Part shown: piece by piece, positions 8,771 through 28,711 of the stretch | Position numbering within the stretch: position 1 is the first letter of the stretch | Layout of the letters: each line of letters starts with the position of its first letter | Assembly (NCBI GenBank): GCA_016617855.1 | Contig: JAECUM010004416.1 | Coordinates: 1 to 64,000, forward strand | DNA length: 64,000 nucleotides | Reading direction: 5' to 3' | Source: Megalonaias nervosa | Taxonomy: Eukaryota; Mollusca; Bivalvia; Unionida; Unionidae | The notes under the pieces: model-generated | The model's database searches: none | What the model saw: the letters and a program-made list of their open reading frames with translations, nothing else | What the model was told of the DNA's origin: nothing | Made by a program: the position numbers and the translations under genes

Positions 8771-8808
8771 GGTCCTTTTCAGAACCAACCAGATCTCAAG
8801 AAAAGAGA
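8771..8808 (+). promoter_or_regulatory. Histone-type 3' stem-loop 1 with downstream element
   Basis: GGTCCTTTTCAGAACC (8771-8786) has the 6-bp stem / TTTC loop layout of replication-dependent histone mRNAs, with one stem mismatch. It is followed by AACC and then CTCAAGAAAAGAGA, close to the U7-pairing histone downstream element CAAGAAAGA. It is placed after cassette 1. Confidence 0.7.
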
Positions 8809-8931
8809 TTAATCATTTTGTCTAAAGTGTTTGTGTTTGTATGTGTCTGTTTGTGTATGTCTTGGTCATTCCCCCAACCCCACCCCAAAAACATTTCACT
8901 TCTCGAATGTGTGTTTGTGTTTGAGGATTTA

Positions 8932-8953
8932 GTGGTGTGTCTATAAACACTTA
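8932..8953 (+). promoter_or_regulatory. Recurrent GTGTGTCTATAAACACTT element, copy 1
   Basis: GTGTGTCTATAAACACTT lies about 150 bp after stem-loop 1. Close copies occur at similar distances after stem-loops 2 (25319-25340) and 3 (26241-26260). It holds a TATAA core within a short imperfect inverted repeat. The role is unknown; a promoter element of the next unit is possible. Confidence 0.45.
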
Positions 8954-9145
8954 CTATCCTTGCTTGTCTGATAGTGTATGTTTGTGATTTGTAGATTTGG
9001 TGTATGGGTTTGTCTCTACTATTAAGTCTTTTCCTTTTCAAAAATGCGTGTTTTGTGTGTTTGATGTATGTATGTCTTTGGCATTGCTAAAAAATAAAAT
9101 TTTCAGAATATGTGTTTGCATGTAAAAGTATTGTGTGGTTGTATC

Positions 9146-9146
<1 letters not shown>

Positions 9147-9184
<38 letters not shown>
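9147..9184. repeat. (GA)n microsatellite
   Basis: About 19 uninterrupted GA dinucleotides lie between stem-loop 1 and the polymerase-side promoter. The surrounding 8810-9190 region is GT-rich and noncoding. Confidence 0.9.
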
Positions 9185-9187
<3 letters not shown>

Positions 9188-9189
9188 TT

Positions 9190-9340
9190 CTTTCAGGTTT
9201 GCGCGAGATCTCTTTTTCAATTTAACGCCTTGTATGTGACATGTATTTTTGTGTGAGGAATATTTTCCTTCAAGTCAGAACTTCAGGTATATGAAACGGC
9301 GTATCCGTTAATCCTACTAATAGAGTAGCGATCAACATCA
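9190..9340 (+). promoter_or_regulatory. TATA promoter module upstream of polymerase region
   Basis: The order is TTCTTTCAGGTTTGCGCG, then TTTTCCTTCAAGTCAGAACTTC, then the TATA-like TATATGAAA at 9288-9296. The same order is seen at 25441-25522 (TTTTAGGTCCGCGCG, CCTTCACGTCCGTGCTTC, TATATAAAA) and, shorter, at 24738-24767. It lies in front of a short ORF (9353) and PolB, so it may drive the replication gene. Confidence 0.5.
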
Positions 9341-9352
9341 ATAAGCATAGCT

Positions 9353-9451
9353 ATGGAGCCTACAAAACCTTCACAGGCCCGACTAGCCCCAAATGTCGCC
9401 ACTATAATCATCCAGACTCAACGGAGGCTTGACCTATTTCACCGCTGCTAG
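9353..9451 (+). other. Short ORF downstream of the promoter module, function unknown
   Basis: The first ATG after the TATA-like box gives a 32-residue peptide beginning MEPTKPSQARLAPNV. It then runs into frames rich in Gln, His and Lys up to 9.85 kb without recognisable domains. It could be the broken N-terminus of a longer protein preceding PolB, a cassette-type gene (position after the same promoter module), or a leader ORF. No homologue is recognised. Confidence 0.25.
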
Positions 9452-9901
9452 CAATATCAACCTCTGCAGTAACACTTGCACTGAGACCGATCAAAGTGGA
9501 GAGGAAAAGAGAATAAAACATCAGGAGGAAACGGGGACTGAGGCAATAGAGGCTACCAAGATAAGAGAAAGAACAAGGAGACAACACCAGTAAAAGAATC
9601 ATCACCAACAACAGCAGCAAGATCAATAGCAACGGCATCATCATCATCAATAATCAAGGAGAAAGAACCCCAAAAAGAAAAACCTTCAGATAGTACAGCA
9701 GTAACATCAGCTCCAACAACAACAATAACATCAACAAAGGAAATGAACCAGCAAAATACAGAAGAGTAATAACAACAGCAGGTTCCACATTAACAGAATC
9801 TAGACCCAGAGAGTTTACACCCAATCAGAGTCTACCATCACCACCAGTAAACCCTGAAAAGTATTACCACATTCGAGAGACGGGAAAAACGCTCCTCTAG
9901 A

Positions 9902-12900
9902 AAACTGAGAACCACAGCCTACACGTACGCGGTGAAGTTTAAAGATTTTAAGTCCGAAGTACCGCTGGAGTAAGCAGAAGGGTTCATCACCGATGTGTGG
10001 GATTCTTTGTTAACCACACTGAAACAGCAATGTGAAAACAAAGAAGACGATCGCTTGAGACTTTCCATTCATCACGACAGTTTGAAGTCCCCCGTTTGGA
10101 TCGAGTTTAGCAGTCCAGCAGAATTGACGCCTTCCAAAGTCATCGACAAGATTCAACACGTGCAGCAATCCAACGACAAGTTTCACATCACCGATGGAAA
10201 AGCGACACTGTTCATGACCCACGTGTCTCTTCCCCAAGGGATAGGACGCAAAAAGGTGTTCTTGGTGGACGACCTTTGCAGCACCAAAAAGAGCCTCGTC
10301 CGAATTAACAACCCTCAAGACAAGATGTGTTTAGCCCGTGCCATCGTGGTGGGACGAACGTATGTCGACAAGAACGATACGGCAGAATGGAAAAGAGCCT
10401 GGCAAACTATTCAAAAATCTAGTCGAGCCAAACAACGAAGAGAAGCAGAACTCCTGTTACAGCAAGCTGGCCTTTCCAAAGACACACCCTGTGGCATTCC
10501 TGAAATGAAAAAGTTGCTAGACGTCTTGGCTCCACACTACACCTTGAAAGTGCACCATCAAAAAGTGCGCGGACCTATGTTTCCAAGTCCACGATTTGGT
10601 GACAATTTCAAAGACGGAAAATACATTCACGTCTATCATCACGATCAACATTTTGATGCCATTACCAGTATCACCGGTTTCCTGGGATACGGTTATTACT
10701 GTGAGAAATGTGACTATGGCTATAACAATCGAGAGCAACACAAACATTGCGGATCGAAATGTGAGGGATGTTTAGCCTCTAAGTCCTGTCTGGACCAAGG
10801 ACAAGAACGAGTGCATTGCTCTGCTTGTCAGCGCACGTTTGTCAGTTTAACCTGTTACCAACAACATCTAAAGACGCAAAGTTCACAGTAGAAAAGTGCC
10901 TGTCAACTCCTGAGATTGTGCCCTACTTGTGGACAAGGCATACGTACCAACAGTGCCAAGACACACGTATGTTCAGGAAAGAAATAATGTCACATTTGTC
11001 ACCAAATCGTGGACTTGGAACACCAATGCTATATTTTAAAAAAAAAACCATTCCTAACACGAAGAAGATGAAGATAAGCAGAAGAAAGGCCATTTCATCT
11101 TTTTCGATTTCGAATGCATGCAAGAGACTGGCATTCACATTCCTAATCTCTGTGTGGCTCACCGAGCGTGCGAGAAGTGCATCCAAGAGCCAATATGTAG
11201 TCATTGCTCTCACTGCAGCAAGATTCCTGGAGGACGTGAAAAAATCTTTCGTGGACCGAACACGCTGGCCGATTTTGCCCAGTGGATCTTAAACCCTATC
11301 GACGAGACGTGGAGCCAAGAAGACATCGAACGTTACGGAGATTGTTATTGCTATGCTACGGTGATGGCTCACAATTTCTCGGGATACGACGGGCAATTTC
11401 TCCTCAGATACTATACGGAACAAAGTTCTGAACGTCCTAAAGTGACTTTGAACGGAGCCAAAATCATTTCCATGCAAGTGGGTCAAGTGCAGTTTAAAGA
11501 TTCGATGAGTTACTTGGCCATGCCTTTGAGTCGCATGCCTAAAATGTTTGGAATGACAGAAATGGCCAAAGGCTATTTTCCACACTTTTTTAATACCGAA
11601 ACCAATCAACACGCCGTTCTACCCCATTTCCTTGAGGCTCACTACTACGACCCCGACAACATGCGCACCGAACAACGAGAAGCTTTCTACGCTTGGTACC
11701 AGACTCACGCCTCGGTCCCCTTCGACTTTCAGGAAGAAATGTTAAAATATTGTCGTTCCGACGTGGACATTTTACGGCGTTGCTGTGGAAAATTTCGAGA
11801 ACTGTTCATGGAGCACGGAGGGATCGATGCTTTGAAAGAAGCCTGTACCATTGCCAAAGCGTGTTCCTTAGTGTACCGTCAACGATTCATGCCCGAAAAC
11901 ACCCTGGCTGCCATCAGTACTCAAACCACTAATTTTGTCAAACGTCAATACTCGGTCAAAGCCCGACGCTGGTTACATTACTTGTGCGACAAGGAAGACA
12001 AATGGATCCAACATGATCGCAACGGAGGAGGCGAAAAAGCCATCGGAAGGTATTCGGTGGATTGCTGGGACTAAGAAAGCCCCAAGATCGTGTACGAGTT
12101 TAACGGTTGCTTATTTCACAGATGTCTCATCTGCTGCCCTGAATGTAAGACGACAAATCAGTTTTTACAACGGACCATGGAAGACTTGTACCAGACCACA
12201 TATCAGCGACGCTTGAAGTTAGAAGAGCAAGGATACCAAGTGGTAGAAATGTGGGAACACGAGTACGATCACCGTTTGAAAACTGTTCCCGAGTTTAAGC
12301 TCATCGTGGAAAGTTACAAGCTGGTGGACCCACTGAACCCAAGGGACAGTTTGTACGGAGGACGGACGAATTACACCTGTTTGCTGTACCACACCGACGA
12401 AGAGAAAGGAGAGGAAATCAAATACCTGGACGCGTGTTCGCTGTATCCATACGTGTGCAAATATTGTCACTTACCCGCAGGGCACCCGCAGTTGCTGACG
12501 GAACATATTGACCTGGACAACATTCGCCAATACGAAGGATTGATCAAGTGCAAAGTTTTGCTTCCCATGTACTTGTACCATCCCGTTTTACCTCACCATT
12601 GCCAAGGAAAACTTATGTTTGCCTTGTGCCGTACTTGTGCCGAAACGTGCAACCAAGACCGTCCTTGTCTGCACACCCAGGAAGAACGCGCCTTGACGGG
12701 AACTTTGGTCAGCGTGGAATTGTTTAAAGCTCTGAACCTGAGATACCAACTGTTAGAAGTGTACGAAATTTACCACTTTCCCAAGACAGAAGAATATCAC
12801 AAGGGCGACGAGACTCAAAAAGGCATTTTCGCAGACTACGTGGATGCCTTTTTGAAAATGAAACAAGAAGCCAGTGGCTATCCTTCCTGGTGCGACTCTC

Positions 12901-13756
12901 CAGAAGACCAAAAGAAATTCAAAGACAAATACTGGGAGCACGAAGGCATCCCTTTAGACCACATCGAGAAAAACGAAGGAAGGCGATCGTTTGCCAAAGT
13001 AATGTTAAATTGCTTGTGGGGTAAAATGGCACAACGACCGTGCTCACCCAAGACGGAGTATTTGACAGAAACTTCTCGCTACTTCCAGATGATTCACGAC
13101 AAAACCAAATACATGAAACATGTGGACGTCGATCGTGAGGACTTGATCTTAGTCAATTACGAAGAAAAACTGGACTTTGTAGAAGCCGACGAATTTGGAA
13201 GTGTCATCGTTGCGGCTTACGTGACAGCCCATGCTCGCTTAAAACTGTACGAAGCTCTAGAACTGTTAGGAGATCGTGTGCTGTATTTTGACACGGAGAG
13301 TTGCATCTACATCGATCGCCTAGGTCAACCTCACCCTGTCATCGAAGGAGACCGTTTAGGAGCCTGGACGGATGAGCATCCCTACGACAAGATTCTAAGT
13401 TTTGCAAGTGCCGGTCCCAAAAATTACGGCTACGGTTACCGTGACCCTCAAGGAGAAGTACACACGGAGCGTAAAGTGAAGGATTGACTCTCAATTATCG
13501 TACCAGTCGACTGGTGAACTTTGGCGTCTTGAAAGAAGCCTTGCAGTCTGGACAGGATGGAAATTTTAAAGTGACCACCCACGAACCGCACAAGATTGTA
13601 CGTTTACCCACACATCAAATCGTTAGCCGTCCCTTGGAAAAAGTCTATCAAATTGTGTACCAGAAGCGAGTTCGGCTTCCCAACCACTTCACTTTACCGT
13701 ACGGTCACGACGATATTGGCCAGCATATAAAAAAGGACAACGTTCAAGACCGATAG
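9902..13756 (+). pseudogene. polB: Protein-primed family B DNA polymerase (Polinton PolB), interrupted
   Basis: This is the replicative polymerase of Polintons/adintoviruses, thought to copy the linear element by protein priming. Visible in order: a zinc-binding segment (CEKCDYGYNNREQHKHC, near 10700-10750); further Cys pairs to 11030; ExoI FDFE at 11103-11114; ExoII NFSGYDGQF near 11372; ExoIII YCRSDVDIL near 11750; motif A DACSLYP at 12429-12449; motif B KVMLNCLWG near 13000; motif C YFDTES at 13284-13301, where the usual DTDS has Glu for the second Asp. Breaks: TAA at 9971-9973, TAG at 10889-10891, a frame change in the A-run at about 11038-11047, TAA at 12072-12074 and a frame change near 13480-13490. 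Start unclear; readable from about 9902. About 1,280 codons overall, a normal size for the family. Confidence 0.9.
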
Positions 13757-13788
13757 TTCATTGTGACTACCATTGCCAAGCGAGAAAG

Positions 13789-14415
13789 ATGAATCCTTTC
13801 AAACATCAAGTATCAAGCAAGAGCAAACTCGAGTGCGATGCTGTGCCTTGCGATGGCAGGGAAGCCGTACACTATGACCGTAGCGATTCAGTACCACATC
13901 ATCGGAACTTTGCTATAACTACTACTACCATACTTACCATGGAAAGTGATGCTGTGCGTGTCAAACCTGACGGATGCGAAAGCGATGCCACTCGTTATCG
14001 TACTCCTTTTCACTTTACTGGTTTTCATGGTGGATGTCATCATTACGAAACCATGCGGCTACCACCCTACGGATGTCATGCAAAACTGAGCACACTCCTG
14101 CATATTTCACCGTACCCTCATCGAAATGAACCTGTGAAAGATGAATATTCCTTCCCTGTGAGTTTGCCTGAATACTGCGACTTTGAAAGTCGATTCCAAA
14201 CCTTCCGGGGAAAATGGCCAAAATATCTAGGAGGACCTACCCCCGAAGAATTAGCTAGAGCTGGATTTATCTAGATGGGCGAAGGGGATAAAGTCAAGTG
14301 CTTCAGTTGCGGTGTGTCACTTCACGAGTGGGAGAACAAAGATTGCGCTTACCTGGAACATGCTCGATGGTCTCCAGATTGTCACTACCTACCTTTAGTG
14401 GGACCTCGTCATTGA
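13789..14415 (+). pseudogene. BIR-domain (IAP-like) protein, one in-frame stop
   Basis: The ATG at 13789 begins a 208-codon frame with a TAG at 14272-14274. The N-terminal 120 residues are unrecognised and rich in Asp, His and Arg. The C-terminal part is a BIR repeat: FESRFQTFRGKW, then GGPTPEELARAGF, then (after the stop) GEGDKVKCFSCG and the zinc ligands in the exact pattern C-x2-C-x16-H-x6-C, ending HARWSPDC. BIR proteins of IAP type bind caspases or related partners and block cell death, and large DNA viruses of invertebrates often carry them. Here it lies directly after PolB in the same orientation. No RING finger is seen. The stop falls inside the BIR fold, so the gene is probably inactive. 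Confidence 0.8.
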
Positions 14416-16191: not shown

Positions 16192-16910
16192 TGGCTACCT
16201 CTACTATCTCTGCTCCCTCTTCCTCCACTGTCAAAGTCAGTGACGAACACCGGACTAGTTGGGAGACCTTGTATCATCGCCATCCCTTTAACATGCTCAT
16301 TGCCGGATCTAGCGGTTTCGCAAAACCGAATTTGTCAAACGTTTGATCGAACATAAACATCATTTGATCGATCGTCCACATCAACGAATCGTGTGGTGTT
16401 ACAAAGAGTGGCAATCGGCGTACAGCCTTCTGCGAGAAAATCAAGGCGATTCCATCGTCTTTGTGGAAGGCATTCCTGGCGAAGACGACGGGATCGTGTC
16501 TGACCCTAATCAAACTCATTTGGTTATCTTTGACGACATGTTAGGAGAAGACGAGAAGAAATTAAACTCTGGTTTACGCGCAAAGGGCATCATCGTAATG
16601 CCAGTGTCATTTACATCGCTGAAATTTGTTTCAACTAAGTAAAGCCCATCGCATCATCAGCCTCAATGCTCATTACGTGGTGTTGTTTAAAAGTCCTAGA
16701 GATAAATCGCAAGTGCAAGTGTTAGCCAAACAGTTAGGAACGCGTTGGCTGACAAATGCGTACGACGATGCCACTCAAATCCCCCACGCTTATTTACTCA
16801 TGGATTTAAAACCCACTACCCCCGATTATTTGCGATTTCGTACCCATCTGTTTCACCACTGGTGCCAAGACGGAGGGCCTGTCGTGTACACGTCCCCTTC
16901 GTCGACTTAA
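16192..16910 (+). pseudogene. Packaging ATPase (FtsK/HerA, A32-like), frameshifted
   Basis: This is the motor that would load DNA into the capsid. The ATG at 16192 leads to a P-loop region (FNMLIAGSSGF near 16290). The frame then changes immediately after it, and the protein continues in the 16343-16642 frame: a conserved IVWCYKEW segment, then Walker B HLVIFDDMLGE near 16520-16550. A second frame change near 16590-16630 leads to the C-terminal block (RIISLNAHYVVLFKSPRDKS) and ends at 16910. Total about 240 codons, usual for the family. TATA-like AAAGTATAAAA lies upstream at about 16131. Family and order are clear; the copy is broken. Confidence 0.85.
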
Positions 16911-18586: not shown

Positions 18587-19456
18587 ATGGAAGGAGGAAA
18601 ACTGGCTTTAGTGCCTTACAAACGATGGATGGAATACCATCGTTGGCAAGAACAACGAACTCCGCATTTACCTCCCAATCCTCATTTGACCGAAATGTCC
18701 CAGTTACAACACGAATTGCAATCGTTGATGGATCGCAGCGAATTGTCAGAAACGGAAAAATCGCAACGGTACGGTCAATTGTTGCAACGACTGGAACTCT
18801 TTCGCCAGAAATCTTTAGACGAAACAGCTCAACCCACTCTGAAAGATTTTAAGACTCTGATGAAAAGTCCATCACCACCATCCCCAGCGGTCAAGACAGA
18901 GGTAGCCCCACGGATGCCTGAGGGAGATGAGGCATGAGAAGTCTTTGAAACACCGTCAGCAGCTCCCATCCCTAGTAAGATTTCAGCGTCCTTTTTGACC
19001 CCTTCCCCTACACCCCAACGAGGAGAACTTAACGCTTGGGTTAAAAAGATGATGTCCACTCCTCCTTCGACAGAAGTGAAAAAGAGAGAAGGGATACCAG
19101 AAGTGAAAAAAGAAAAGAAGACCAAAGCTATCCCATTACCACCACCACCAGCACTACCTTCAACTTCTACACCCGTGGCACATCGGACACGTAAAACCGT
19201 TTCTAAACCACACCCTCGTCCCATTCAGAGTAGCATCAGTGAAGAGTGGATCACTTATTTAAAAAATGTAGAAGGTGTTAGCCAGCATTTACTACGATCC
19301 ATTCCATCCTGCAGGTTACGGAGGAGTTCAGAAATTGCATCGTGCTGCCAAAACTCGACTGAAAAGTGTTCGTTTACCTCAAGTGCAACGCTGGTTCCAA
19401 GAACAAGCCACGTACACCTTACACAAACCCGTTCGACGAAAATTTTCCAGAAGTAG
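18587..19456 (+). pseudogene. Proline-rich / coiled-coil structural-type protein, one in-frame stop
   Basis: The ATG at 18587 begins MEGGKLALVPYKRWMEYHR, an LVPYKRW-type start that resembles small Polinton proteins located before the integrase. A coiled-coil region follows (LQHELQSLMDR...), then a TGA at 18935-18937. The same frame continues with Pro/Ser/Lys-rich linkers and a conserved-looking end (RTRKTVSKPHPRPIQ, EEWITYLKN). The last part overlaps the start of the integrase frame at 19275, so the natural end is probably near 19275. Function unknown. Confidence 0.5.
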
Positions 19457-20360
19457 CACCCAAGTGGAGGGTATCGATCATCAATGGCAAGCTGATTTAG
19501 CCGATGTCTCTCATTTGGCCACCTACAGTCGTGGTTACAAATATTTGTTTTGTGTCATCGACGTCTTTTCCAAATTTGCTTGTGTCGTACCATTGACTTC
19601 CAAATCGAGCAGTGAGTTAGTGCGAGCCCTCAAACTGGTGTTGAAACAAAGTGGGCGTCACCCTCTTCGATGGCAAACTGACAAAGGCACCGAATTTCTG
19701 AACCAAGCTTTCCAAAAAGAACTGAAGAAACGTGACTTTCATTTTTTCACCACCGAGAATCCCGAAACCAAAGCCAGAATCGTGGATCGTTTTCAACGCA
19801 CCTTGAAAGAAAGCATTTGGAAATATTTTACGCATCAACACATTCTCAAGTACATCGACGTCTTACCACACCTCGTTCAATCGTGCAACCAATCTTACCA
19901 TCGGAGCATCGGACGTGCCCCACAAGAAGTGACTCCTGACAACGAAGTGACCGTCTTCGAGCGCCTCTTTGGTACGTCCCCATCAGTGACTGTCCCCAAG
20001 AAAGGTGGAGTGTTGGCATCATGATATTGGGTTCTTATCGGCAAAACCAAACGCACTTTCGACAAAGGTTACTTACCCATTTGGACCACCGAATTGTTTT
20101 GTGTCTCTGAACGTGTGCGTGGCCGTCATCCTCGCGGCTATAAATTCGAAGACATGAACGGAGAAGTGTTAAAAGGAACGTTTTACTTGCCCGAATTACA
20201 ACGTGTGACCAAAAAAGAAGACGACGTGTACGAGATCGAAAGCATTCTCGATCAAAGACCTCGACGTGTCAAATAAGTCAAAGTACGTTGGAAAGGATAT
20301 CCTCCCAGTTTTGACTCTTGGATCGACGCTTTGCAAATCATCGACTGCAAAAAGAAGTGA
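19275..20360 (+). pseudogene. int: Retroviral-type integrase with chromodomain, two in-frame stops
   Basis: This enzyme would join the element's ends to host DNA. The Polinton-typical N-terminus is visible (YYDPFHPAGYGGVQKLHRAA). The rve core has Asp in WQADLADVS and in WQTDKGTEF, but the third acidic position reads IVDRFQRTLK, with Asp in place of the catalytic Glu. After a TGA at 20022-20024 the frame continues through an SH3-like region and a chromodomain (YEIESILDQRPRRVK, then VKVRWKGYP, then FDSWIDALQII), which has a TAA at 20274-20276; the final TGA is at 20358-20360. About 360 codons in total. Chromodomains on integrases can direct insertion to modified chromatin. The E-to-D change plus two stops suggest inactivity. 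Confidence 0.9.
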
Positions 20361-20365: not shown

Positions 20366-20770
20366 ATGCCCTTCAACACAACCTCAGGTACTGCAGTGAT
20401 CACTCTTTCCCCCAGTTCTTCTCTGCAAGATCTACAAAAGCAACCCTTGTGGGTGTGGTGTGGAGAACGTGTGCCTAAAATACAAATCGTCTTTTTCTGC
20501 CAAATCTTTGTGGTGTATTGTGTCATCGGTGCTGCCATTGCCAATTTGAGTTTGCGACAAGGAGGCAAACAATTGTGGACCATTTTACTTAGCAGTTGCA
20601 TTGGTTACCTTCTTCCCAATCCGTCTCTGAAATATTCCTCTAACGGAAACAACAGCGGGAGTTTTGTGTCCAACGTCAGTCCCCCTTCCAACAGTTACCC
20701 TAACCGTCCTCTTTTAGACACTCCTCTGACTTCCAGTGACTCCTCGGACACTAGAACTGTGGAATTATGA
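20366..20770 (+). CDS. Two-TM Polinton membrane protein, 134 aa, intact
   Basis: The ATG at 20366 follows the integrase by 5 bases. After a polar N-terminus there are two hydrophobic segments: KIQIVFFCQIFVVYCVIGAA and, after LSLRQGGKQ, LWTILLSSCIGYLLP followed by NPSLK. The tail is Ser/Asn/Pro-rich. A protein with this two-helix plus GYLLPNPSLK pattern sits before the penton gene in many Polintons/adintoviruses; its role is not known. The stop overlaps the ATG of the penton gene (20767), a tight viral-style junction. Confidence 0.65.
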   Translation: MPFNTTSGTAVITLSPSSSLQDLQKQPLWVWCGERVPKIQIVFFCQIFVVYCVIGAAIANLSLRQGGKQLWTILLSSCIGYLLPNPSLKYSSNGNNSGSFVSNVSPPSNSYPNRPLLDTPLTSSDSSDTRTVEL

Positions 20771-21663
20771 ACAACCAATTTTACTTAACGTTATCCAGTG
20801 ACAGTTCCATGGAGGTGTTTCCCAATAACACTTTGTGCTGTTTCTCGGCCAGATTACCTCAAGCCATCCAATTGGATCACGAAGCCCATTGGGATGTGGC
20901 TTTGGTGGAAATGATTCACCCTACACAAATCAAAAACATCATCGAAAATCAAAACACTTTTACGGTGGAAGTTCATGACCCGCAAGTGCAACAAGCCATG
21001 GATGAACGCAGCAGTGTAGCTGACTTTATGAAAACACAAGACCCCAAAACTAAACGAACCACTTATCTGTTGAAAATTCCTGCGGGCTATTATTTTAGTG
21101 GTCAACATTTGGTGAACGCCATTGTTAACAGGTTCAATTTCATGTTTGGTAAAGGCTTGGAGAAAGCCAGAAGAAGTGTCACGATCGAATACCACAAAAT
21201 AGCTCGTCGCCTAATGATGAAATTTTCAGAGGACAAAGTATAGACCATTACATTTTGTCCTGAATTTAATGACATTTTGGGTGGAGACCCCAAGATGATC
21301 AAGATTAGAAACGAAATACCAGCCGTGACCGGTAACTTGGATTTTGCGAAATATTTTCGATTCCCTGTAGAAATGAACCAAGGACTGAATTTGATGTTTG
21401 TGTACTCCGGTGTGGTGGAGTACAACGTGGTGGTACACACCTCCGTACCGTTACTGCGTGTCATTCCTTTCAAAGTGGATTCTGCCACGGCTGCTGACGA
21501 GGAAGGTGGAAACACCTATTATGTTCACCGCGAATTTGTACATCCTCACTATTTACCTGTCAGTAAGTCGTATTTCGACACTGTCAACATTACTATAAAA
21601 GGAGATCTGGGACAAAATATTCCATTCACCAAAGGGAAAGTCACAGTGAAACTCCATTTTTGA
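20767..21663 (+). pseudogene. Penton-like minor capsid protein, one in-frame stop
   Basis: A 298-codon frame from the ATG at 20767 with a single TAG at 21241-21243. The N-terminus (NNQFYLTLSSDSSMEVFPNN) and the following WDVALVEMIHP are typical of the Polinton/adintovirus minor capsid, a single jelly-roll that forms the capsid vertices. The C-terminal half (21277-21663) includes FVYSGVVEYNVVV and VPLLRVIP strands. Size and place before the pVI-like and major capsid genes agree with the family. Confidence 0.8.
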
Positions 21664-22183: not shown

Positions 22184-23441
22184 ATGCCACCCACCATGAT
22201 GACGATGCAAGAATCCCAATGGGTCCAATTTCATCCCGTCTCCTCTTTGACGGATTCAGCTCCCATCGAGTTTGAAATCAAAGGACAACCCGAAGATTAC
22301 ATCGATCTGAATAGCACTTACTTGTACCTGAAACTGAAAGTGATCAAAACCGACAACACCAATCCAAAAGCCGATGCCAGAGTAGCTCCCGTCAACAATT
22401 TCATGTATTCCTTGTTCAGCGAAGTTTGTACTTGAGTAACAAACCGGTTAGCAGCAGCATGGAATCTTACCCTTACCGAGCGTACCTAGAAAATCTCTTG
22501 ACGTACGGAAAAAAGGCCAAGAACACTCATCTGGATGCTTGCGTGGTATGGAAACCTGACACCGTGGGTGAAGACATGTTTAACGACACAGCCCTGACAG
22601 CCGATGACAATCCTCACAATGTGGGTTTTAACAACCGTCGAAGGAAAATCCTGCAAGCTCGTAGTTTAGAACTGATGGATCGCTTGCATTTGGACATGTG
22701 GTTGCAAGACAAGTATTTGCTCAACGGAGTGGATATTCGCATGAGACTCAATTGCAGCAGTGTCGCTTTCCATTTGATGGCTCATGCCAACGAGTACAAA
22801 ACCATCATCCAAGAAGCCAGACTTTACGTGCGTCGCATAGAAGTGTTAACTAAAGCTGGAAACGACATCAGTCAATGAGCAGATCGACCGCCAAGTATCC
22901 GATACGACGTGTAGAAGTGAAAACGTTGACCATTGCTGCTGGGCTCCGATCCAAGATCGAAGATCATCTGTTCCAAGGACAGTTACCCAAATATTTAATC
23001 GATGGCATCGTCAGTAATGCAGCCCTCAACGAAGCCCACGATCAAAATCCTTTCCAGTTTAAGCACTACAGAGTGTCCAAGATCGAAGTCAGTCGCGATG
23101 GCAAGACCTTGTGTACCAGACCCTTCGAACCTAACTTTGCCCAGAAGAATTACTTGAGATCGTACTTGTCCTTGTACGAAGCTACCGGACAACTAGGAAC
23201 CAACACCAGTCACGGTATTTCGTACGAAGATTATGTAGGAGGTTACACTTTGTGAGCCTTTGATTTCACTCCAGACCAAGGCAGCGACGAGGGTCATTTC
23301 CACACTATAAAATTTGGTCAGCTGCGTGTGGAACATCAGTTTGCGGAAGCTCTCGCCGAGACGGTCAACGTCATCTTGTATGCCGAATTCGATAATACCA
23401 TAGAAATCAACAGTTTGAGAGAGATCATTCTAGACTATTAG
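22184..23441 (+). pseudogene. Double jelly-roll major capsid protein, broken
   Basis: The ATG at 22184 starts SQWVQFHPVSSLTDSAPIEF, the usual beginning of Polinton/adintovirus DJR major capsid proteins, followed by EDYIDLNSTYLYLKLKV. The frame changes near 22425-22440, continues at 22426-22878 (including DRLHLDMWLQDKYLLNGVDI and a Tyr/Arg-rich IQEARLYVRRIEV), changes again near 22865-22880, and then runs to 23441 with a TGA at 23253-23255 in the conserved GGYTL...AFDFTPD segment. About 418 codons in total, normal for the family. Three breaks mean no full-length product. Confidence 0.85.
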
Positions 23442-23446
23442 AAACA

Positions 23447-23548
23447 ATGGAAGATACTTATCGCTCATTGAACGGTAGAGTATCTTTGGAAATGGAATGG
23501 GAGGATAGCGTGAAAACAGAACCCAAGACAAAGACGAGGACGACGTAG
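23447..23548 (+). CDS. Very short ORF, 33 aa, unknown
   Basis: The ATG five bases after the capsid stop encodes an acidic then Thr/Lys-rich peptide (EDTYRSLNGRVSLEMEWEDS). It may be the broken N-terminus of the following conserved gene, which has no ATG of its own near the expected start. Not recognised. Confidence 0.3.
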   Translation: MEDTYRSLNGRVSLEMEWEDSVKTEPKTKTRTT

Positions 23549-23580
23549 TGGTCAGATCCAGAGGGCAAGAACAAGAATAA

Positions 23581-23949
23581 CATTTAGTGTCCTGTTTTGC
23601 CAAACACCTGGCGAATACAATTACGGAATTGAGTAAGAAATATTGTTATGGATGTCAAAACGATCATCCCAGTCAAATTCAACATGAGAAATGTTTGATG
23701 ATGAGTCAAGAACAAAAATTGGACGAGTATCTGGACGACGCTTGGAGTCTCTTCTCGGAAGAAGCAGTGTTGCATGAGTGGTATAAAGGCTTGCGTGATC
23801 ATTCCTGCCCACCATTGTCTACTCTAGAGATCTATCGCATCGAAGCTCTCTTAGCCCAGAGTGCGGAGAGAAGGCGAAGAAACGGCTACTTGACAGAGCG
23901 TTTCAAACAAAAAGTCAGAACTGAATTGATGACTTATCATTACCTGTGA
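23581..23949 (+). pseudogene. Conserved Polinton small protein, start lost
   Basis: The frame is open from after a TAA at 23578 but has no ATG before 23692. It contains a Cys-rich helical motif (KKYCYGCQNDHPSQIQHEKC, then LMMSQEQKLDEYLDDAW) followed by a basic C-terminus ending in HYL. Small proteins with this YCYGC...HPSQ...H..C pattern occur between capsid and protease genes in many Polinton/adintovirus elements; the role is unknown and zinc binding is possible. The missing start suggests decay or that the ORF at 23447 was its N-terminus. Confidence 0.55.
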
Positions 23950-23972
23950 AAAAAAAAGAACAAAACAAAAAA

Positions 23973-24530
23973 ATGGATACCTGGGAACTTTATTACCTTT
24001 TGAACAATAGTTCGTATACTGCTTCTTGGAATCCTGTCGTGTGCGCTAAAGATGAACTACCTCATCGAAAAGCTAAAGACCATCAAGCTTATGTCATCAA
24101 CACGGACGACAGTCATCTCCCATGAACTCACTGGGTTGCCGTCTACTTCCCTCAAGAGGATTGTATGGAATAGTTTGATTCGTATGGATTACCCCCTTTG
24201 GAAGACGATATCATCGACTTTATGAGAAGAAATGCCCAGACGACACGATACAATAATGTGAAATTACAAGGTACAGATTCCATGGTGTGTGGACAATATT
24301 GTGTGTATTTTCTTCATCAACGCAATCTTGGATATATTTTAGAACATTTAGTGACTTATTTTGATAGTCACTCATCTAGAAACGACAAGAAAGTAGATCG
24401 ATGGTTTTGTGACCATTATGGATATCCTTTGTCTTTAGCTAGGAAACGTAGTGTACATCAATGTTCTCATGACTTCCATCAGTGGAAATCTCACATGATT
24501 TCACAACGTTGTCAACCTTGTCAAAAATAA
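23973..24530 (+). pseudogene. Adenain-like cysteine protease (maturation protease), two stops
   Basis: The ATG at 23973 begins a 185-codon frame with TGA at 24123-24125 and TAG at 24171-24173. The catalytic histidine context (THWVAVYFP) lies directly after the first stop; the FDSYGLPPL strand follows the second; QGTDSMVCGQYCVYFL carries the active-site Gln and Cys. The C-terminal helical part is complete. In adenoviruses and Polintons this enzyme cleaves capsid and core precursors during virion maturation. An AATAAA at 24582 follows. Both stops precede the catalytic Cys, so the copy should be inactive. Confidence 0.85.
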
Positions 24531-24574
24531 TTTGTTTGATGTTATTGTTAATTGTTAATTGTTAGTATTTGATT

Positions 24575-24600
24575 GTTGATTGAATAAAAAATGTTGTGTT
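24575..24600 (+). terminator. Poly(A) signal after protease gene
   Basis: GATTGAATAAAAAATGTTG follows the protease stop by about 50 bp in an AT-rich stretch. It is a plausible cleavage/polyadenylation signal for the virion-gene block, in contrast to the stem-loop ends of the cassettes. Confidence 0.45.
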
Positions 24601-24737
24601 TTGAAAAAATGTGTCTGTCGCTTGTTTTCCAAAAAAAACTGTGAATATATGCTCATTGACTTTCTCTCTATCCCTCACCATGACATTCGCTATCATAACG
24701 TTCTGACCCAAACAAAAAATCCCTAGTAGGGATGTTT

Positions 24738-24805
24738 TCTATCGCGTCCGCGTTTGAACCATATAAAGCGGGTTGGTCTCCAGTCTGGCCATCCACTGTT
24801 GACTC
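24738..24805 (+). promoter_or_regulatory. Promoter module before cassette 2
   Basis: TCGCGTCCGCGTTTGA is followed by the TATA box ATATAAAGC (24761-24769) and, about 30 bp on, CACTGTTGACTCGT near the expected start site. The CG-rich box, TATA and GTTGACTCGT are shared with 25441-25560. Confidence 0.6.
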
Positions 24806-24813
24806 GTCAACCT

Positions 24814-25017
24814 ATGAAGATGCCTTCCAGACTATCCAAGCTGAACATAGCTAACGTCAATTTACATCGTGTCAGGCTAAGCCTGATACCGAGGCCTGAA
24901 GAGATAGAGAATGTCAGGATGTTAGCAATAGCCCAAGACCTGATAGAGGAAGTCTTCAGAGAGGAAATCAAAAAAGAAGAAGAAGAATGGACAGAAAAGT
25001 ACAGACTTCAGAAATAG
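24814..25017 (+). CDS. Cassette gene 2: small helical protein, 67 aa
   Basis: The ATG at 24814 lies about 20 bp after the conserved GTTGACTCGT word. The start (MKMPSRLSKLNIANVNLH) resembles the first codons of cassette 3 (MSSRIAKLLEL). The C-terminal half is a charged coiled-coil-like helix (AIAQDLIEEVFREEIKKEEE). Downstream frames up to 25195 are Gln-rich and may be a lost C-terminal part. The transcript would end at the histone-type stem-loop at 25227. Not a histone: no histone fold is seen. Function unknown. Confidence 0.5.
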   Translation: MKMPSRLSKLNIANVNLHRVRLSLIPRPEEIENVRMLAIAQDLIEEVFREEIKKEEEEWTEKYRLQK

Positions 25018-25226
25018 AGAGAACAGCAACAATAACAGCAGCAACAGCAGCAGCAGAGCAGCAAGAACCAGACAGAGGTTTTGTGGACTGCCGTGTGGAC
25101 ACCAAAGAGTTTTCCTTCTCTTTCCGCAGAAGCAGACCGTATCGTATAGGAAAGCCTGCTGCCAGACGGGGACGCAATCTTAGACAGTAAAAAAAAGACT
25201 GCCATCACTCCCCGTCAGCAAAAAAC

Positions 25227-25265
25227 AGCCCTTTTCAGGGCTACCCCAATACTCTAGAAAAGACA
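25227..25265 (+). promoter_or_regulatory. Histone-type 3' stem-loop 2 with downstream element
   Basis: AGCCCTTTTCAGGGCT (25227-25242) is a perfect 6-bp stem with TTTC loop, preceded by AAAAAC and followed by ACCCCA, as in metazoan histone mRNAs. CTCTAGAAAAGACA (25252-25265) fits the purine-rich downstream element at the usual distance. Confidence 0.85.
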
Positions 25266-25318
25266 TACTAATTCAATTGCCAAAACAAATTTGTGTGTTC
25301 GTATGTTTAAAAAAATAG

Positions 25319-25340
25319 AAGTGTGTCTATAAGCACTTCG
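25319..25340 (+). promoter_or_regulatory. Recurrent GTGTGTCTATAA element, copy 2
   Basis: AAGTGTGTCTATAAGCACTT is an inverted repeat (AAGTG...CACTT) around CTATAA, nearly the same word as at 8932 and 26241, again downstream of a stem-loop. Confidence 0.45.
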
Positions 25341-25440
25341 TTTCGTTTATCAGTAAAAAAAAAATTCACCCTTCGTTTTCTGTCTTGTCGAATAGTGCAT
25401 GTCTGTGTTTGTAAGTTAAAAGGTCAACGTGAGTTTTTCT

Positions 25441-25560
25441 TTTAGGTCCGCGCGTTTGATGTGATGGTAAGTATTGGTGTTAGAGATGTTTACCTTCACG
25501 TCCGTGCTTCAAGTATATAAAATGACGCGATCGTCAGTCTGGCTACCGATCGTTGACTCG
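25441..25560 (+). promoter_or_regulatory. Promoter module before cassette 3
   Basis: TTTTAGGTCCGCGCGTTTGA, then CCTTCACGTCCGTGCTTC, then TATATAAAA at 25514-25522, then GCTACCGATCGTTGACTCGT about 25 bp later. This is the clearest copy of the module shared with 24738-24805 and 9190-9340; the GCTACC-ATCGTTGAC part also occurs at 7538-7556 before cassette 1. Confidence 0.6.
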
Positions 25561-25572
25561 TGAACACTGAAA

Positions 25573-26139
25573 ATGAGCAGCAGAATTGCTAAGCTTTTAG
25601 AACTTTAAATGCACCTGGAGTATGCCAGACGTCTCCTGGACGAGCTGGCTATGGAGGCTGTTGCAGAAGAAGCAAGGTTGAAAGAAGACCAGGAAAAAAA
25701 GAAGAAAGAAGAGGAGAAAGAAAAGAAAAGAGGAATTCTGCCTCACCTCAGCATGAGACCTGTGTGTGAGGTGAAAGGTGAGGTGAGGACACCTGCACAA
25801 CCAGTGTCGCCTCCTCAACCACAGCCACAGCCACAACCACAACGTCAGCCACAACCTCTACCAAGAGTCGCTGTCCTCCAGACAGAAAACTGGGAGCAGG
25901 AAGCATGGGAGGAATTGGAGAGACAGCAGCAAGAGTGGGAGCCACAGAGACCTCATCATAACCGGGTCTGGCATAGGAGAAGACAGAGGGAACAAGTCTT
26001 CACTATCCCTCAAAGTGAAAACTGGGATGATGAGGCCACTCAAGCCCCGTCTGCGCTCGGAACCATACGCATTAATTGGGAACAGGAATGGAGCCGGCGA
26101 TGTGTGTGTGGTGCCCGCCCTGGGAGATGTCATCATTAA
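25573..26139 (+). CDS. Cassette gene 3: coiled-coil, Pro/Gln-rich protein
   Basis: An ATG at 25573 reads 11 codons (MSSRIAKLLEL) and hits TAA at 25606-25608, directly followed in the same frame by ATG 25609 and a 176-residue ORF. Because cassette 1 is open at the aligned position (CAG), the TAA is probably a mutation of a once longer protein; translation could restart at 25609. The product has a coiled-coil start (HLEYARRLLDELAMEAVAEE), a Lys/Glu run, a PQPQ tract, two repeated TENW/SENW motifs (LQTENWEQEAW, IPQSENWDDEA) and a basic, Cys-containing end. Not recognised and not histone-like. It ends 26 bp before stem-loop 3. Confidence 0.6.
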
Positions 26140-26165
26140 CCAGGTGCATCTGAAGTTCAAAATAC

Positions 26166-26204
26166 AGCCCTTCTCAGGGCTAACCAGATCTCTAGAGAAG
26201 AGAC
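26166..26204 (+). promoter_or_regulatory. Histone-type 3' stem-loop 3 with downstream element
   Basis: AGCCCTTCTCAGGGCT (26166-26181) is a perfect 6-bp stem with loop TCTC, followed by AACCA and then CTCTAGAGAAGAGA (26190-26203). It is only 26 bp after the cassette 3 stop codon, the short distance typical of histone mRNAs. Confidence 0.85.
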
Positions 26205-26240
26205 AGTATTCAATTTGCCAATTTGTGTTAATGTGAAGTA

Positions 26241-26260
26241 GTGCGACTATAAACACTCAC
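26241..26260 (+). promoter_or_regulatory. Recurrent CTATAAACACT element, copy 3
   Basis: GTGCGACTATAAACACTCAC, matching the words at 8932 and 25319, lies about 75 bp after stem-loop 3. Confidence 0.45.
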
Positions 26261-26299
26261 TTCTTTACTGATGTGTTTGTGTGTGTGTTTGTGTGTTTG

Positions 26300-26570
26300 C
26301 GTTCGCATTCGTTTGTGAGGATAGTATAGTGTGTATGTTTTATGCATTCGCGTTCATTTGTGTGGATAGTAAATATGGTTTGTTTTATGCTTTCTCGTTC
26401 GTTGGTGTGGATAGTATAGTGCGTATGTTTCATGCAATCTCGTTCTTTGGTGTGGATAGTAAATATGGAGTGTTTTATGCTTTCGCGTTCGTTGGTGTGG
26501 ATAGTATCATGTGTATGTTTTATGCATTCTCGTGCGTTTGTGTGGATAGTATAAATGTGTGTGTTTTGGC
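26300..26570 (+). repeat. 48-bp tandem repeat, about 5-6 units
   Basis: Units contain GTGTGGATAGTA(T/A)A...TGTTTTATGC(A/T)TTC(G/T)CGTTCGTT. The length is a multiple of three, so one frame stays open through all units with a repeated 16-residue peptide, but composition is GT-rich and the array lies between stem-loop 3 and cassette 4. More likely a promoter-proximal minisatellite than a coding region. Confidence 0.75.
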
Positions 26571-26577
26571 GAGCAAC

Positions 26578-26688
26578 ATGGAAAGAATGATTAGATTGCA
26601 GGAGGTAGAAGACACGTTAGGAATGGTGGAGAAGATGCTAGTCAGAATGCAGTTTGGGGCTTATAGTCCCCATAGACTAAGCATGTAA
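26578..26688 (+). pseudogene. Cassette gene 4: short helical protein, probably truncated
   Basis: The ATG at 26578 gives a 36-residue product (MERMIRLQEVEDTLGMVEKM...) ending at TAA 26686-26688. The same frame continues in another helical, charged stretch (SKDILNEMIRIEKEDLEDKR) and then a long Lys/Glu/Arg tract to about 26910, so the TAA has likely truncated a longer coiled-coil protein. The histone-type stem-loop 4 follows at 26982. No homologue recognised; grouping with the other cassettes is by layout, not clear residue identity. Confidence 0.45.
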
Positions 26689-26981
26689 ATTAATTATTTA
26701 AAGAGAAGTAAGGACATATTAAATGAAATGATTAGGATTGAAAAGGAAGATTTAGAAGACAAAAGGAGAATGAGGGAGTGGAACGAAAAGATAGAAAAGG
26801 AAGAAGAAAATTAAAAAAGGAAGAAGGAGGAGAAAGAGAAGGAGAAGGAAAAAAGGAGGAGAAGGAAAAGAATGAGAAGAAGACAAAAAGTGGAGGTCAA
26901 AAAAGTGTAGGAGAGAAAATAAGAAGTTGGTGGAGGAAAAGAAGAACGTAGAAGAAGACAAAGAAGAAGAAGAAATCCAAA

Positions 26982-27022
26982 GGCCCTTTTGAGGGCCACT
27001 TTCGTATGCCTCGAAAAGATAG
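26982..27022 (+). promoter_or_regulatory. Histone-type 3' stem-loop 4 with downstream element
   Basis: GGCCCTTTTGAGGGCC (26982-26997) is a perfect 6-bp stem with loop TTTG, preceded by ATCCAAA and followed by ACTTTC. CCTCGAAAAGATAG follows about 12 bp later as the downstream-element candidate. The upstream CCAAA matches the vertebrate histone flank. Confidence 0.8.
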
Positions 27023-27167
27023 TTATTCTCACTTTGCCTATCGATATGTGTTATCTATATGTTTATCTATGTCTCTGTCTCTCTATTGTATTTGTCCCTC
27101 CCTAGAGTGGTAGCTACGCGTATTCAGGTCAGCCCCTTGCTACATTGTTGCATGTGTCCAGTACCGT

Positions 27168-27330
27168 GTCATCATGCCACCTGTTCCATTCCTATTGTCC
27201 CTATACAAAATTCCCATTGTCCGTAGAGTGTCCCAGGGTCATTTTTTGTCCGTTAAAATCTTGTCCGTATAGTACAAAACAGGGTCCCATAACGTTAATT
27301 CCCATTGTCCGTAAAGTATCCCATATACTA
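27168..27330. repeat. Degenerate CCCATTGTCC(G/C)-type repeats
   Basis: TCCCATTGTCCGTA(G/A)AGT(G/A)TCCC and related words recur at about 27185-27330. They belong to the same word family as the array at 28745-29000, possibly subterminal repeats of the Maverick. Confidence 0.45.
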
Positions 27331-27479
27331 CTTACGTATTTTGAAATATTAGTTTGAGTGGTAAGATCTGACACATGGGACATATAGTCTAACAGATTCT
27401 TGAAGTGTGTGACAGGAGGGAACTGAACAGTCAGATTCATTCCTATTTCAGTCATTTTTATTTCTTGTGTTCCTGTTGT

Positions 27480-27890
27480 AACATCAAGTTTGCTGACGTA
27501 TTTTATGTTTAGATATTATTTGAGAGGAAAAACATTTGTTTTGGATTGTTCAGAGGAAATATAAAGTGCTCATCGAACTATAATATTATTTTAGAACGAT
27601 TGTGAATTATTTAAAAGAAGTTCTCTAAAACGCCATTTTGACAACGTCACGATTCTTGGCTGACCAGTACATTTCCGGATCTGAAATTGATACGGAACTT
27701 TTCATCCTTTTGGACTTAACTAGAACTTTTTCAGGATTTTTGGGGAGGATTCACTTCATAATACTGTATGTTCCTCTCACATTTTCATTTATGACTTTGA
27801 TAATTGTATTATTTGTTAAATTTTACAAAACTTCTTGGTCTTGCTTCTTTCTGTTACTTAGTTTATGACTACAGAGTCGTAATATCACCA
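27480..27890 (+). repeat. LTR-like fragment (Ty3/gypsy family LTR end)
   Basis: The segment 27745-27890 aligns with the LTR end at 47255-47388: ATTTTCATTTATGACTTTGA, then TTGTTAAATTTTACAAAACT, then TTCTGTTACTTAGTTTATGA and ACAGAGTCGTAA. It also matches 300-482. The left boundary is unclear. It lies inside the proposed Maverick, so it inserted later. Confidence 0.5.
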
Positions 27891-28259
27891 AGAACTCATC
27901 CTTCACCATTAACTTCCACTCAAATCACAAGACCTCGACCTGCTTATCTCACACCACCAAAAGTTAAATCTCCAACATCTCATATTTCACCTGTATGACA
28001 TTCTATGGAAAGAACCAATTTCGGCAAGAAAGTACACAGAGGACTTGTCTTATTGAAGATAAAAGGATTAAGAATAGGAGTAAGGTGTGTGGCTTCTTTC
28101 CCACCTGACGATTAATTGAGTAGTACGCACCACACGACGAGAAATTAAGTAGTTGGCTTTGCCACCGGTAAACAGTCGTACATGTAAAAAATAACGTACA
28201 CGACTTGAGTTCTAACAAACAAATGAATAGTCGTACCATTCGTCTTCAGTCAGCCATAA

Positions 28260-28620
28260 ATGACAACAAGTGAACATAGTAAGATTGAAAAGTTACAGGA
28301 AACAGCAGATGCTGTGGTGGACTTAAAGCAACTGTTAGGGCAAGTAGACGCCTAGTGGAAGTAAGTCGTGTTCGCACGCACGTGGCTGCAGTACAAAGAA
28401 CCAAGATCTTCGCGAAAGAAGTAACAGAGGAAGAGGAATAAGAAAAGATTAAGACTACCTGGACTAAGGAAAGAAAAGAAAAAGAGAACAAGAAAAATAA
28501 ACAGGAAGACTTCGAACGCTTAATTGCCAACTGGATGAAGGTCCAGGCGAAATTCAGAAAGAAGGGACATCCAGTTTGGATACCTGAAGAGAAAAAAAAG
28601 AGATAAACTTCCTAAGTTCA
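28260..28620 (+). pseudogene. Cassette gene 5: broken helical protein
   Basis: The ATG at 28260 gives MTTSEHSKIEKLQETADAVV and stops at TAG 28353-28355. Basic, helical stretches continue in changing frames to about 28620. The stem-loop 5 at 28673 follows. By layout it is a fifth, decayed member of the cassette series; residues are too diverged for a firm link. Upstream, 27900-28259 holds no gene and no clear TATA module. Confidence 0.4.
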
Positions 28621-28672
28621 ATAAAGAGATAGTCGAAGACCTGGAGGTCGGGAGGGAATAAGAAACCCTAAT

Positions 28673-28711
28673 AGCCCTTTTCGGGGCTACTTATCTCTCT
28701 AGAAAAGAGAT
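28673..28711 (+). promoter_or_regulatory. Histone-type 3' stem-loop 5 with downstream element
   Basis: AGCCCTTTTCGGGGCT (28673-28688) pairs over 6 bp with one G-T wobble and loop TTTC, followed by ACTTAT and then CTCTAGAAAAGAGA at 28698-28711, nearly identical to the motif after stem-loops 2 and 3. Confidence 0.8.

Follow-up and report, generated by a model that had tools for sequence, protein, structure and literature searches.

Five hairpins of the type that ends replication-dependent histone mRNAs lie on the forward strand of a decayed Polinton/Maverick in the window (the whole analysed stretch of 64,000 nucleotides), and judging from their sequence they are probably working SLBP/U7-type 3' ends on genes of the element that do not encode histones. 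In histone mRNAs, SLBP binds the hairpin, the U7 snRNP pairs with a downstream element (HDE) and the RNA is cut between the two; the mRNAs are non-polyadenylated, and are made and stable mainly during DNA replication. The initial annotation of this DNA had noticed the hairpins and proposed such a role. The observation is confirmed and the interpretation supported, its functional half (SLBP-bound, non-polyadenylated and S-phase-restricted mRNAs) being putative.

Hairpins and downstream elements in the window

All five 16-nt hairpins were recovered where the initial annotation had placed them, on the plus strand (Table 1), and they are the only matches to RF00032 (Histone3) in the window up to E = 10. 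Their scores range from 20.7 to 30.8 bits and are all under the gathering score of 34 bits, at which the window yields 0 sites. The proposed covariance-model check thus held in part: it failed at that score for the window, but 15 of 20 other genome loci reach it (14/17 of the pattern-selected, 1/3 of the coding-selected loci; top score 39.5 bits). As had been described, three stems are fully Watson-Crick, one has a wobble pair and one a mismatch, and each site is followed by a purine-rich motif; AAAAGA or AGAAGA begins 15-17 nt past the stem at 5/5 sites, the chance per site of such a motif being 0.044 when estimated over the whole element and 0.080 over 24.6-28.8 kb. Neither AATAAA nor ATTAAA occurs within 200 nt 3' of the hairpin at any of the five sites.

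With up to three mismatches, the consensus RGCCCTTTTCAGGGCY finds exactly the five window sites, against a mean of 0.93 and a maximum of 4 in 100 shuffles. A cruder rule, a hairpin plus an element, found four of the five and one unrelated site (40489), with a mean of 0.26 and a maximum of 4 in 200 shuffles of positions 7001-29000, so the case owes its strength to the relatives and the exact consensus, not to this rule. A chance origin of the hairpins is ruled out by the RF00032 matches, the shuffles, the downstream elements and the genome-wide counts given below. Among six sequences, stem pair 1 is A-U or G-C (3:3) and pair 3 is C-G or U-A (5:1); 97.2% of stem cells are paired, which 2 of 500 shuffles reach, and the number of pairs altered on both sides is matched by 34 of 500. 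For so few sequences, this suggests modest covariation support for a 6-bp stem with a 4-nt loop.

Table 1. Features of the Polinton and of its hairpin-bearing cassettes in the window
Feature	Position	Strand	Basis and remarks
Decayed relative of the 25609-26139 gene, 5' of stem-loop 1	7590..8030 (limits approximate)	+	by eye
Stem-loop 1	8771..8786	+	GGTCCTTTTCAGAACC, one C-A mismatch; left-end, inward-facing; RF00032 22.7 bits
Downstream element 1	8801..8806	+	AAAAGA
Polinton PolB, two open pieces	11058..13487	+	PF03175 6.4e-18 and 2.1e-24
Retroviral-type integrase of Polinton	19272..20024	+	PF00665 1.3e-12
AATAAA	24583..24588	+	53 nt past stop of last core ORF (24174-24530)
Cassette A	24762..25189	+	TATA box, CAGTCTGGC block, ORF from ATG 24820 (stop-broken), basic C-terminus; read from sequence
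Stem-loop 2	25227..25242	+	AGCCCTTTTCAGGGCT, perfect; RF00032 28.7 bits
Downstream element 2	25258..25263	+	AAAAGA
Cassette B	25514..26139	+	TATA box, CAGTCTGGC block, open frame 25609-26139 ending RRCVCGARPGRCHH
Stem-loop 3	26166..26181	+	AGCCCTTCTCAGGGCT, perfect; RF00032 20.7 bits
Downstream element 3	26196..26201	+	AGAAGA
Cassette C, decayed right-end gene	26570..26981 (limits approximate)	+	3' end 26939-27040 aligns (blastn) with right-end cassettes of L043, L044, L046, L049
Stem-loop 4	26982..26997	+	GGCCCTTTTGAGGGCC, perfect; RF00032 30.8 bits
Downstream element 4	27014..27019	+	AAAAGA
Terminal-repeat part, main element	27135..27341	+	blastn to L043-L047, L049, L050; at both ends of other copies
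Cassette D, apparently decayed right-end gene of second, diverged Polinton remnant	28429..28672	+	blastn; 28429-28603 at 71-72% to right-end ORFs of L044 and L046
Stem-loop 5	28673..28688	+	AGCCCTTTTCGGGGCT, one U-G wobble; RF00032 21.7 bits
Downstream element 5	28703..28708	+	AAAAGA
Candidate U7-pairing sequences			GAAAAGAT, AGAAAAGAGA

The element, its genes and its copies in the genome

The element is a Polinton/Maverick with PolB and an rve integrase, and its PolB piece 12075-13487 has 521 relatives, with 39-89% identity among the 120 matches listed. An inverted repeat of at least 80 nt was not found in the decayed copy of the window; in other copies, outward hairpin pairs 19-21 kb apart together with shared end segments amount to terminal inverted repeats of an element of about 20 kb. 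The ORFs 16313-16642, 24174-24530, 22315-23255 and 20755-21663 are candidates for the ATPase, protease, major and minor capsid genes, and the pieces of these ORFs that were scanned gave no match above a Pfam cut-off. Because RF00032 matches nothing in the core region of the window copy, where some genes have AATAAA-type signals, the element probably runs two 3'-end programmes, of which the histone-like one would serve accessory proteins needed when the element's DNA is replicated.

The five hairpins had been assigned to cassettes of one Maverick. The assignment to a Polinton stands, but the hairpin at 28673 appears to come from another right-end remnant, which is more diverged and lies outside the terminal repeat of the main element (~27.34 kb). 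The gene before 8771 appears to be a decayed relative of the 25609-26139 gene; it ends about 750 nt upstream of the hairpin, positions 7891-7952 align (78.8%) with the L043 copy of that gene, and stem-loop 1 itself aligns (blastn) with the inward-facing hairpin of genome copy L047. The cassette B frame is coiled-coil/Pro-Gln-rich, and its predicted structure (mean pLDDT 67.0, pTM 0.28) has firm helices only at about 2-40 and 87-110. It has eight relatives in metagenomes, with a conserved C-terminus; another metagenome search with cassette proteins gave seven relatives, and many genome copies have an intact right-end ORF. IMG/VR gave no relatives of PolB, the cassette B relatives or the integrase, and GTDB contigs none of cassette B. 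That the hairpins follow non-histone genes was borne out in the products scanned: no histone Pfam match was found in cassette B, P0002, the right-end L046 product, the 64-aa tail of left-end L050 or the L014 zinc finger. The cassettes would therefore work like histone genes, without being histone genes.

In the 2.19-Gb host genome the exact motif GGCYCTTTTCAGRGCC occurs at 6649 sites, compared with 1 for the reversed pattern, and all 28 loci (8 + 20) retrieved from the top of that list of sites align with the Polinton family. The first 100 listed places contain 24 neighbour pairs that share a contig; 18 of these face outward (-,+), 13 of the 18 being spaced 19.3-21.3 kb, and two are same-facing, 18.9 and 19.8 kb apart. 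All 13 inner pieces between such outward pairs are Polinton DNA: seven carry PolB, and the other six match window positions 20.1-25.5 kb at 89.6-92.0%, reversed, with PolB in 3/3 of the mirrored pieces tested among them. In 50 coding-selected copies the stem is fully paired in 42 (39 with the exact 16-mer and 3 with a G-U pair); one pair is lost in five (L074, L085, L088, L100, L120), two pairs are lost in L084, the hairpin is deleted in L081 and the loop is inverted in L090. The HDE core is intact in 40 of the 50 by script and in five by reading, and changed in five (L074, L080, L087, L092, L102); the hairpins of L079, L081, L084, L090 and L096 were scored apart from the script on account of damage or misplaced flanks.

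One of three Polinton contigs from outside also carries the signal. In this distant Polinton, L014, a hairpin of 35.8 bits (RF00032) lies 28 nt past the stop of a C2H2 zinc-finger ORF, with AAAAGA 15 nt past the stem; of the other two, L015 breaks off within an ORF at either end, and L016 measures 3.6 kb and consists mostly of PolB. Hairpin-like patterns also occur in stretches of IMG/VR (13, 21 and 6, with L003 in two) and were put down to chance by eye, from their flanks.

An intact host H2A gene ends in CCAAC-GGCCCTTTTCAGGGCC-ACCAAATAGCCAGAAAAGATG (RF00032 37.8 bits); the 16 bases of its stem-loop are identical to those of the Polinton hairpins, and its purine-rich downstream element is of the same kind. 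The possibility that the signals are remnants of an inserted histone cluster is thus set aside, as they recur in copies of the element, follow non-histone ORFs, equal the stem-loop of an intact host H2A gene base for base and are present in a distant Polinton. An SLBP domain is found in the host (PF15247, 67.6 bits, at C954, and a further 39.5-bit match nearby). U7 snRNA had no Rfam match in the genome (of 657865 candidates, 65 were scored), nor in any of 14 controls, and a U7 pattern search gave 17 matches compared with 23 for its control; by reading, none of the 17 has a U7-like 3' hairpin, and Rfam calls none of them U7. Pairing of the HDE with the 5' end of mammalian U7, a proxy for that of the host, is mostly no better than that of random 30-mers of the element.

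What the hairpins may do

If these are histone-type 3' ends, SLBP would bind the cassette hairpin, the U7 snRNP would pair with the cassette HDE, and the RNA would be cut between them, by analogy with histone mRNAs; the cassette mRNA would then be non-polyadenylated, and made and stable mainly during DNA replication. That the purpose of these ends lies in S phase is a further step, towards which I lean with some reserve. Evenly poised between acceptance and doubt is the broader proposal that animal Polintons across distant lineages have a second expression programme copied from replication-dependent histone genes, in which the accessory genes at their ends are transcribed and the RNAs cleaved with the help of SLBP and U7, possibly inside histone locus bodies. 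The resulting mRNAs would lack a tail, belong to S phase and bring the timing of the element's proteins into line with DNA replication in the host.

Alternatively, the hairpins may be the vestige of one captured histone 3' end, spread by duplication within the element and unused, with the mRNAs polyadenylated downstream. Some points fit this: all window sites are under the Rfam cut-off, young copies are alike by descent, and AATAAA or ATTAAA lies within 200 nt downstream in 4 of 21 right-end copies with the exact hairpin, so polyadenylation after read-through is possible there. The likeness of the outermost hairpins is indeed partly shared descent, since these border the terminal repeats on the inside and the majority of copies are young. 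However, two stem pairs differ between cassettes in both of their bases, the hairpin with its HDE has been kept behind unrelated genes and, at matching spacing, in the distant Polinton, and all six pairs are kept in the 42 of 50 coding-selected copies, which makes an unused vestige unlikely.

I consider it quite unlikely that the hairpins are DNA-level elements of Polinton ends, such as integrase sites or replication or packaging signals, with only the looks of a histone hairpin. Two hairpins do border the terminal repeats on the inside, and they mostly face outward at both ends; but further ones are internal (the inward-facing one at the left and those of cassettes A and B) and have other sequences, the hairpins lie just past ORFs, 29 of 33 hairpins from 28 genome loci have an HDE 14-17 nt past the stem (the other four being without the HDE core as searched), and host H2A has the identical 16-mer. 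This use of the host's own 16-mer, at very many sites in the genome, would also suit a decoy, in which bulk hairpin RNA is the main product and titrates SLBP or U7, perturbing the host histone supply, with the ORFs being secondary; the metagenomic relatives of the cassette proteins and the many intact right-end ORFs speak against it, and it is highly improbable.

Histone 3' ends are regarded as exclusive to histone mRNAs. If the Polinton does use its histone-type 3' ends, a mobile element with very many copies would give the SLBP/U7 pathway a natural client outside the histones; if the broader proposal is true, non-histone use of that pathway is widespread. Such use would account for the means by which these elements could match gene expression to host replication, would leave the cassette genes hard to detect by RNA-seq after poly(A) selection, and might strain the host histone supply.

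Comparison with known systems

The initial annotation knew of no description of such ends in Polintons, and apart from one bare count none was found for accessory cassettes in the Polinton literature searched. The count is six RF00032 matches in 8300 polinton-like virus and virophage genomes, mentioned without further remark in the section concerned of PMC12220804. It is given there as one figure among the RNA classes listed, the likeness being to the histone 3'UTR stem-loop at the Rfam gathering score, and the section gives no gene, HDE, host comparison or function and reports none in the cryptophyte elements that are the paper's subject. Six in 8300 is rare, in a collection of polinton-like viruses and virophages from a paper on protist elements. 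The available text of PMC2781718 (2009) calls the stem-loop unique to histone mRNAs and reports no evidence of Drosophila Slbp binding non-histone RNAs.

With the 3' end of animal replication-dependent histone mRNAs (RF00032), the Polinton ends share the hairpin of 6 bp and 4 nt, whose 16 bases are those of host H2A, the A/C-rich flanks and the purine-rich element 14-17 nt past the stem, and with histone genes a short TATA-driven gene and, at the window sites, no nearby poly(A) signal. Unlike histone 3' ends, they follow non-histone ORFs of a mobile element, at both of its ends and in very many copies, and are known here from sequence. PolB, rve integrase, terminal repeats and a length of about 20 kb are as in known Polinton/Maverick (adintovirus-like) elements of animals, from which this one differs in its accessory cassettes with histone-type 3' ends. 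The 'Histoid' genes of adomaviruses and tailtomaviruses, as far as the available text of PMC11071296 describes them, likewise belong to animal DNA viruses that touch the histone system; in these the protein is histone-like, whereas in the Polinton only the mRNA end is.

Histone-type hairpins of the window Polinton

A decayed Polinton/Maverick occupies about 7.5-27.34 kb of the window, which is one contig of the 2.19 Gb host assembly, and besides PolB and integrase it carries core ORFs that I take to be ATPase, capsid and protease. Its PolB has 521 relatives, with 39-89% identity among the 120 matches listed; where the source is named, many of those listed come from bivalves (Ostrea, Saccostrea, Crassostrea, Mercenaria, Pinctada), while echinoderms, ribbon worms, cnidarians or arthropods are named for others, and a few are filed within bacterial MAGs. 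From this a bivalve-like host may be inferred.

Features of the window
Feature	Position	Remark
PolB (PF03175)	11058-13487	Pfam match
rve integrase	19272-20024	Pfam match
Histone-type hairpins	8771, 25227, 26166, 26982, 28673	all on + strand
Second short inverted repeat	8935, 25318, 26240	AGTG...CTATAAA/CTATAAG...CACT type, by eye; follows three of the five hairpins
45-nt tandem repeats	26253-26598	immediately upstream of right-end cassette; host loci L043 and L044 align with them many times over
CCCATTGTCC-type repeats	27213, 27301	after end cassette
Possible exon 1, 6-phosphogluconolactonase gene	from 29565	beyond Polinton; PF01182 16.6 bits, below cut-off 27
Gypsy-type pol fragments	37382-46852	reverse transcriptase, integrase; by eye
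tRNA-like match, probably a tRNA-derived SINE	51095-51381 (-)	RF00005 29.1 bits; adjoins stretch repeated in L043 at 87.6%

All five hairpins of the initial annotation are present where it had placed them, and the Rfam histone stem-loop model (RF00032) matches these and no other site in the window, though at 20.7-30.8 bits, below the gathering score of 34. A purine-rich downstream element (HDE; AAAAGA or AGAAGA) starts 15-17 nt past the stem in each of the five, the chance at random places being 0.044-0.080. Neither AATAAA nor ATTAAA occurs within 200 nt downstream of any of them; of ten core ORF stops examined, four have such a signal overlapping the stop or within 53 nt.

The genes concerned had been described as non-histone, and no product scanned has a histone match. 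Cassettes A and B have a promoter block in common, in which a TATA box is followed 18-20 nt on by CAGTCTGGC, then by GTTGACTCGT and the ATG; among the host copies fetched (L043-L120), CAGTCTGGC was found five more times, always upstream of right-end genes (L044, L049) or B-type genes (L089, L093, L096). BLASTP detected no similarity among the right-end protein (L046), P0002 as a relative of cassette B, and the left-end tail (L050); the sole further match, of 23 residues, is between P0002 and the zinc finger of L014, a distant Polinton (E 0.17-0.25). Cassette B has eight metagenome relatives, with RCVCGARPGRC invariant near the C-terminus, and the right-end protein (195 aa, pI 9.5) has seven.

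Occurrence and conservation in the host genome

The motif GGCYCTTTTCAGRGCC has 3293 + 3356 exact matches in the host genome, against 0 + 1 for the reversed-pattern control. The first eight sites listed can be aligned with one another as well as with the window Polinton, each having an HDE, and 20 more fetched sites all align with the Polinton family; over 28 loci, 29 of 33 hairpins have the HDE at 14-17 nt. Of 20 loci scanned, 15 pass the RF00032 gathering score, at up to 39.5 bits (14/17 selected by pattern, 1/3 by coding sequence).

Among the first 100 listed places, there are 24 neighbour pairs, each with both members on one contig, and 18 of these face outward (-,+), with three (-,-), two (+,+) and one (+,-). 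Spacing is 19.3-21.3 kb in 13 of the 18 outward pairs, and 18.9 and 19.8 kb in two (-,-) pairs. From each of 13 outward pairs I fetched one inner piece: seven contain PolB, and the remaining six align in minus orientation with 20.1-25.5 kb of the window (89.6-92.0%), which makes them reversed Polintons, with PolB at the mirrored place in all three tested. As these inner pieces hold Polinton DNA, the 13 outward hairpin pairs represent the two ends of Polintons. Two hairpins are seen at the left end. In L045 and L047 they occupy opposite strands at a distance of about 1.17 kb, one facing outward and one inward; in L050 they share a strand, 1.33 kb from each other, and there is an inverted segment.

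With the right-end protein as query, 7624 first-look candidates came up in the host genome, and all 150 scored were matches. Many of the ORFs are intact, with a large group of identical scores, and dozens of intact ORFs in one subfamily score identically or nearly so, which suggests very recent Polinton amplification. In 50 copies selected by coding sequence (the 30 best and 20 fetched, hence biased to close relatives), the exact 16-mer is kept in 39 and all six stem pairs in 42; one pair is lost in five and two in one, the hairpin is gone in one and the loop inverted in one. In this last copy, L090 / L057 (G000:C99:3881-3896), the hairpin core reads GGCCCTGAAAAGGGCC, inverted as though by a flip of the palindrome.

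Host histone genes and a distant Polinton

A search of the host genome gave 11 core-histone matches, and canonical histone arrays thus seem to be missing, either in the assembly itself or in what the search recovered. RF00032 matches at E up to 1 in three of the 11 loci: an intact H2A gene (L124), ending in GGCCCTTTTCAGGGCC with flanks CCAAC/ACCAAATAGCCAGAAAAGATG (37.8 bits), and two H2B-like loci (30.7 and 24.5 bits), the one at 24.5 bits having CTCTAGATAAGATG, near to the window's CTCTAGAAAAGAGA. The Polinton family thus carries the signal in the host's own form. The RNA-binding domain of SLBP, the stem-loop binding protein, is encoded on host contig C954. A host U7 snRNA was found neither by the Rfam search, which scored 65 of 657865 candidates and was silent on 14 of 14 controls, nor by a pattern search (17 hits vs. 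23 in the control). Pairing of the HDEs with the 5' end of mammalian U7 is mostly no better than that of random 30-mers from the element.

PolB alignment also led to three contigs filed under bacterial MAGs (L014, L015, L016), taken here as contaminants. The PolB of L014 is 40% identical to the query P0011, a relative itself 54% identical to the window's PolB piece; L014 encodes an integrase and, presumably, capsid and protease in further ORFs. Its hairpin (8340-8355, 35.8 bits with RF00032) follows the stop codon of a C2H2 zinc-finger ORF by 28 nt, with AAAAGA 15 nt past the stem. No hairpin is present in L015, cut inside ORFs at both ends, or in L016, 3.6 kb and mostly PolB. This virus-type element L014 also has a TATA-binding protein of its own (7189-7695, minus strand; PF00352, E 1.2e-27). 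Repeats of the CCCATTGTCC type follow its end cassette too (L014:8663-8850), and are possibly a subterminal repeat common to both Polintons.

Probable use of the histone pathway and relation to known elements

Use of the SLBP/U7 pathway best explains why small, unrelated genes of two distant Polintons have in common a full histone 3' end that is identical to the host's and in which stem pairs have changed on both sides. According to PMC9756948, stem-loop and HDE lead to cleaved, non-polyadenylated mRNAs, and histone locus bodies contain the active U7 machinery in S phase only. By analogy, cassette RNAs would be bound by SLBP, paired with U7 and cleaved, with corresponding cell-cycle timing. 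In the accessible text of PMC5799277, histone and polinton appear in the references only. The initial annotation knew of no description in Polintons; this has to be narrowed, as PMC12220804 already records the motif in such elements as a number, namely six RF00032 hits among 8300 polinton-like virus and virophage genomes, on which it does not comment. For its placement on end cassettes, HDE, host match and mass occurrence no description was found in the literature covered, with subscription papers and bioRxiv preprints largely outside its scope.
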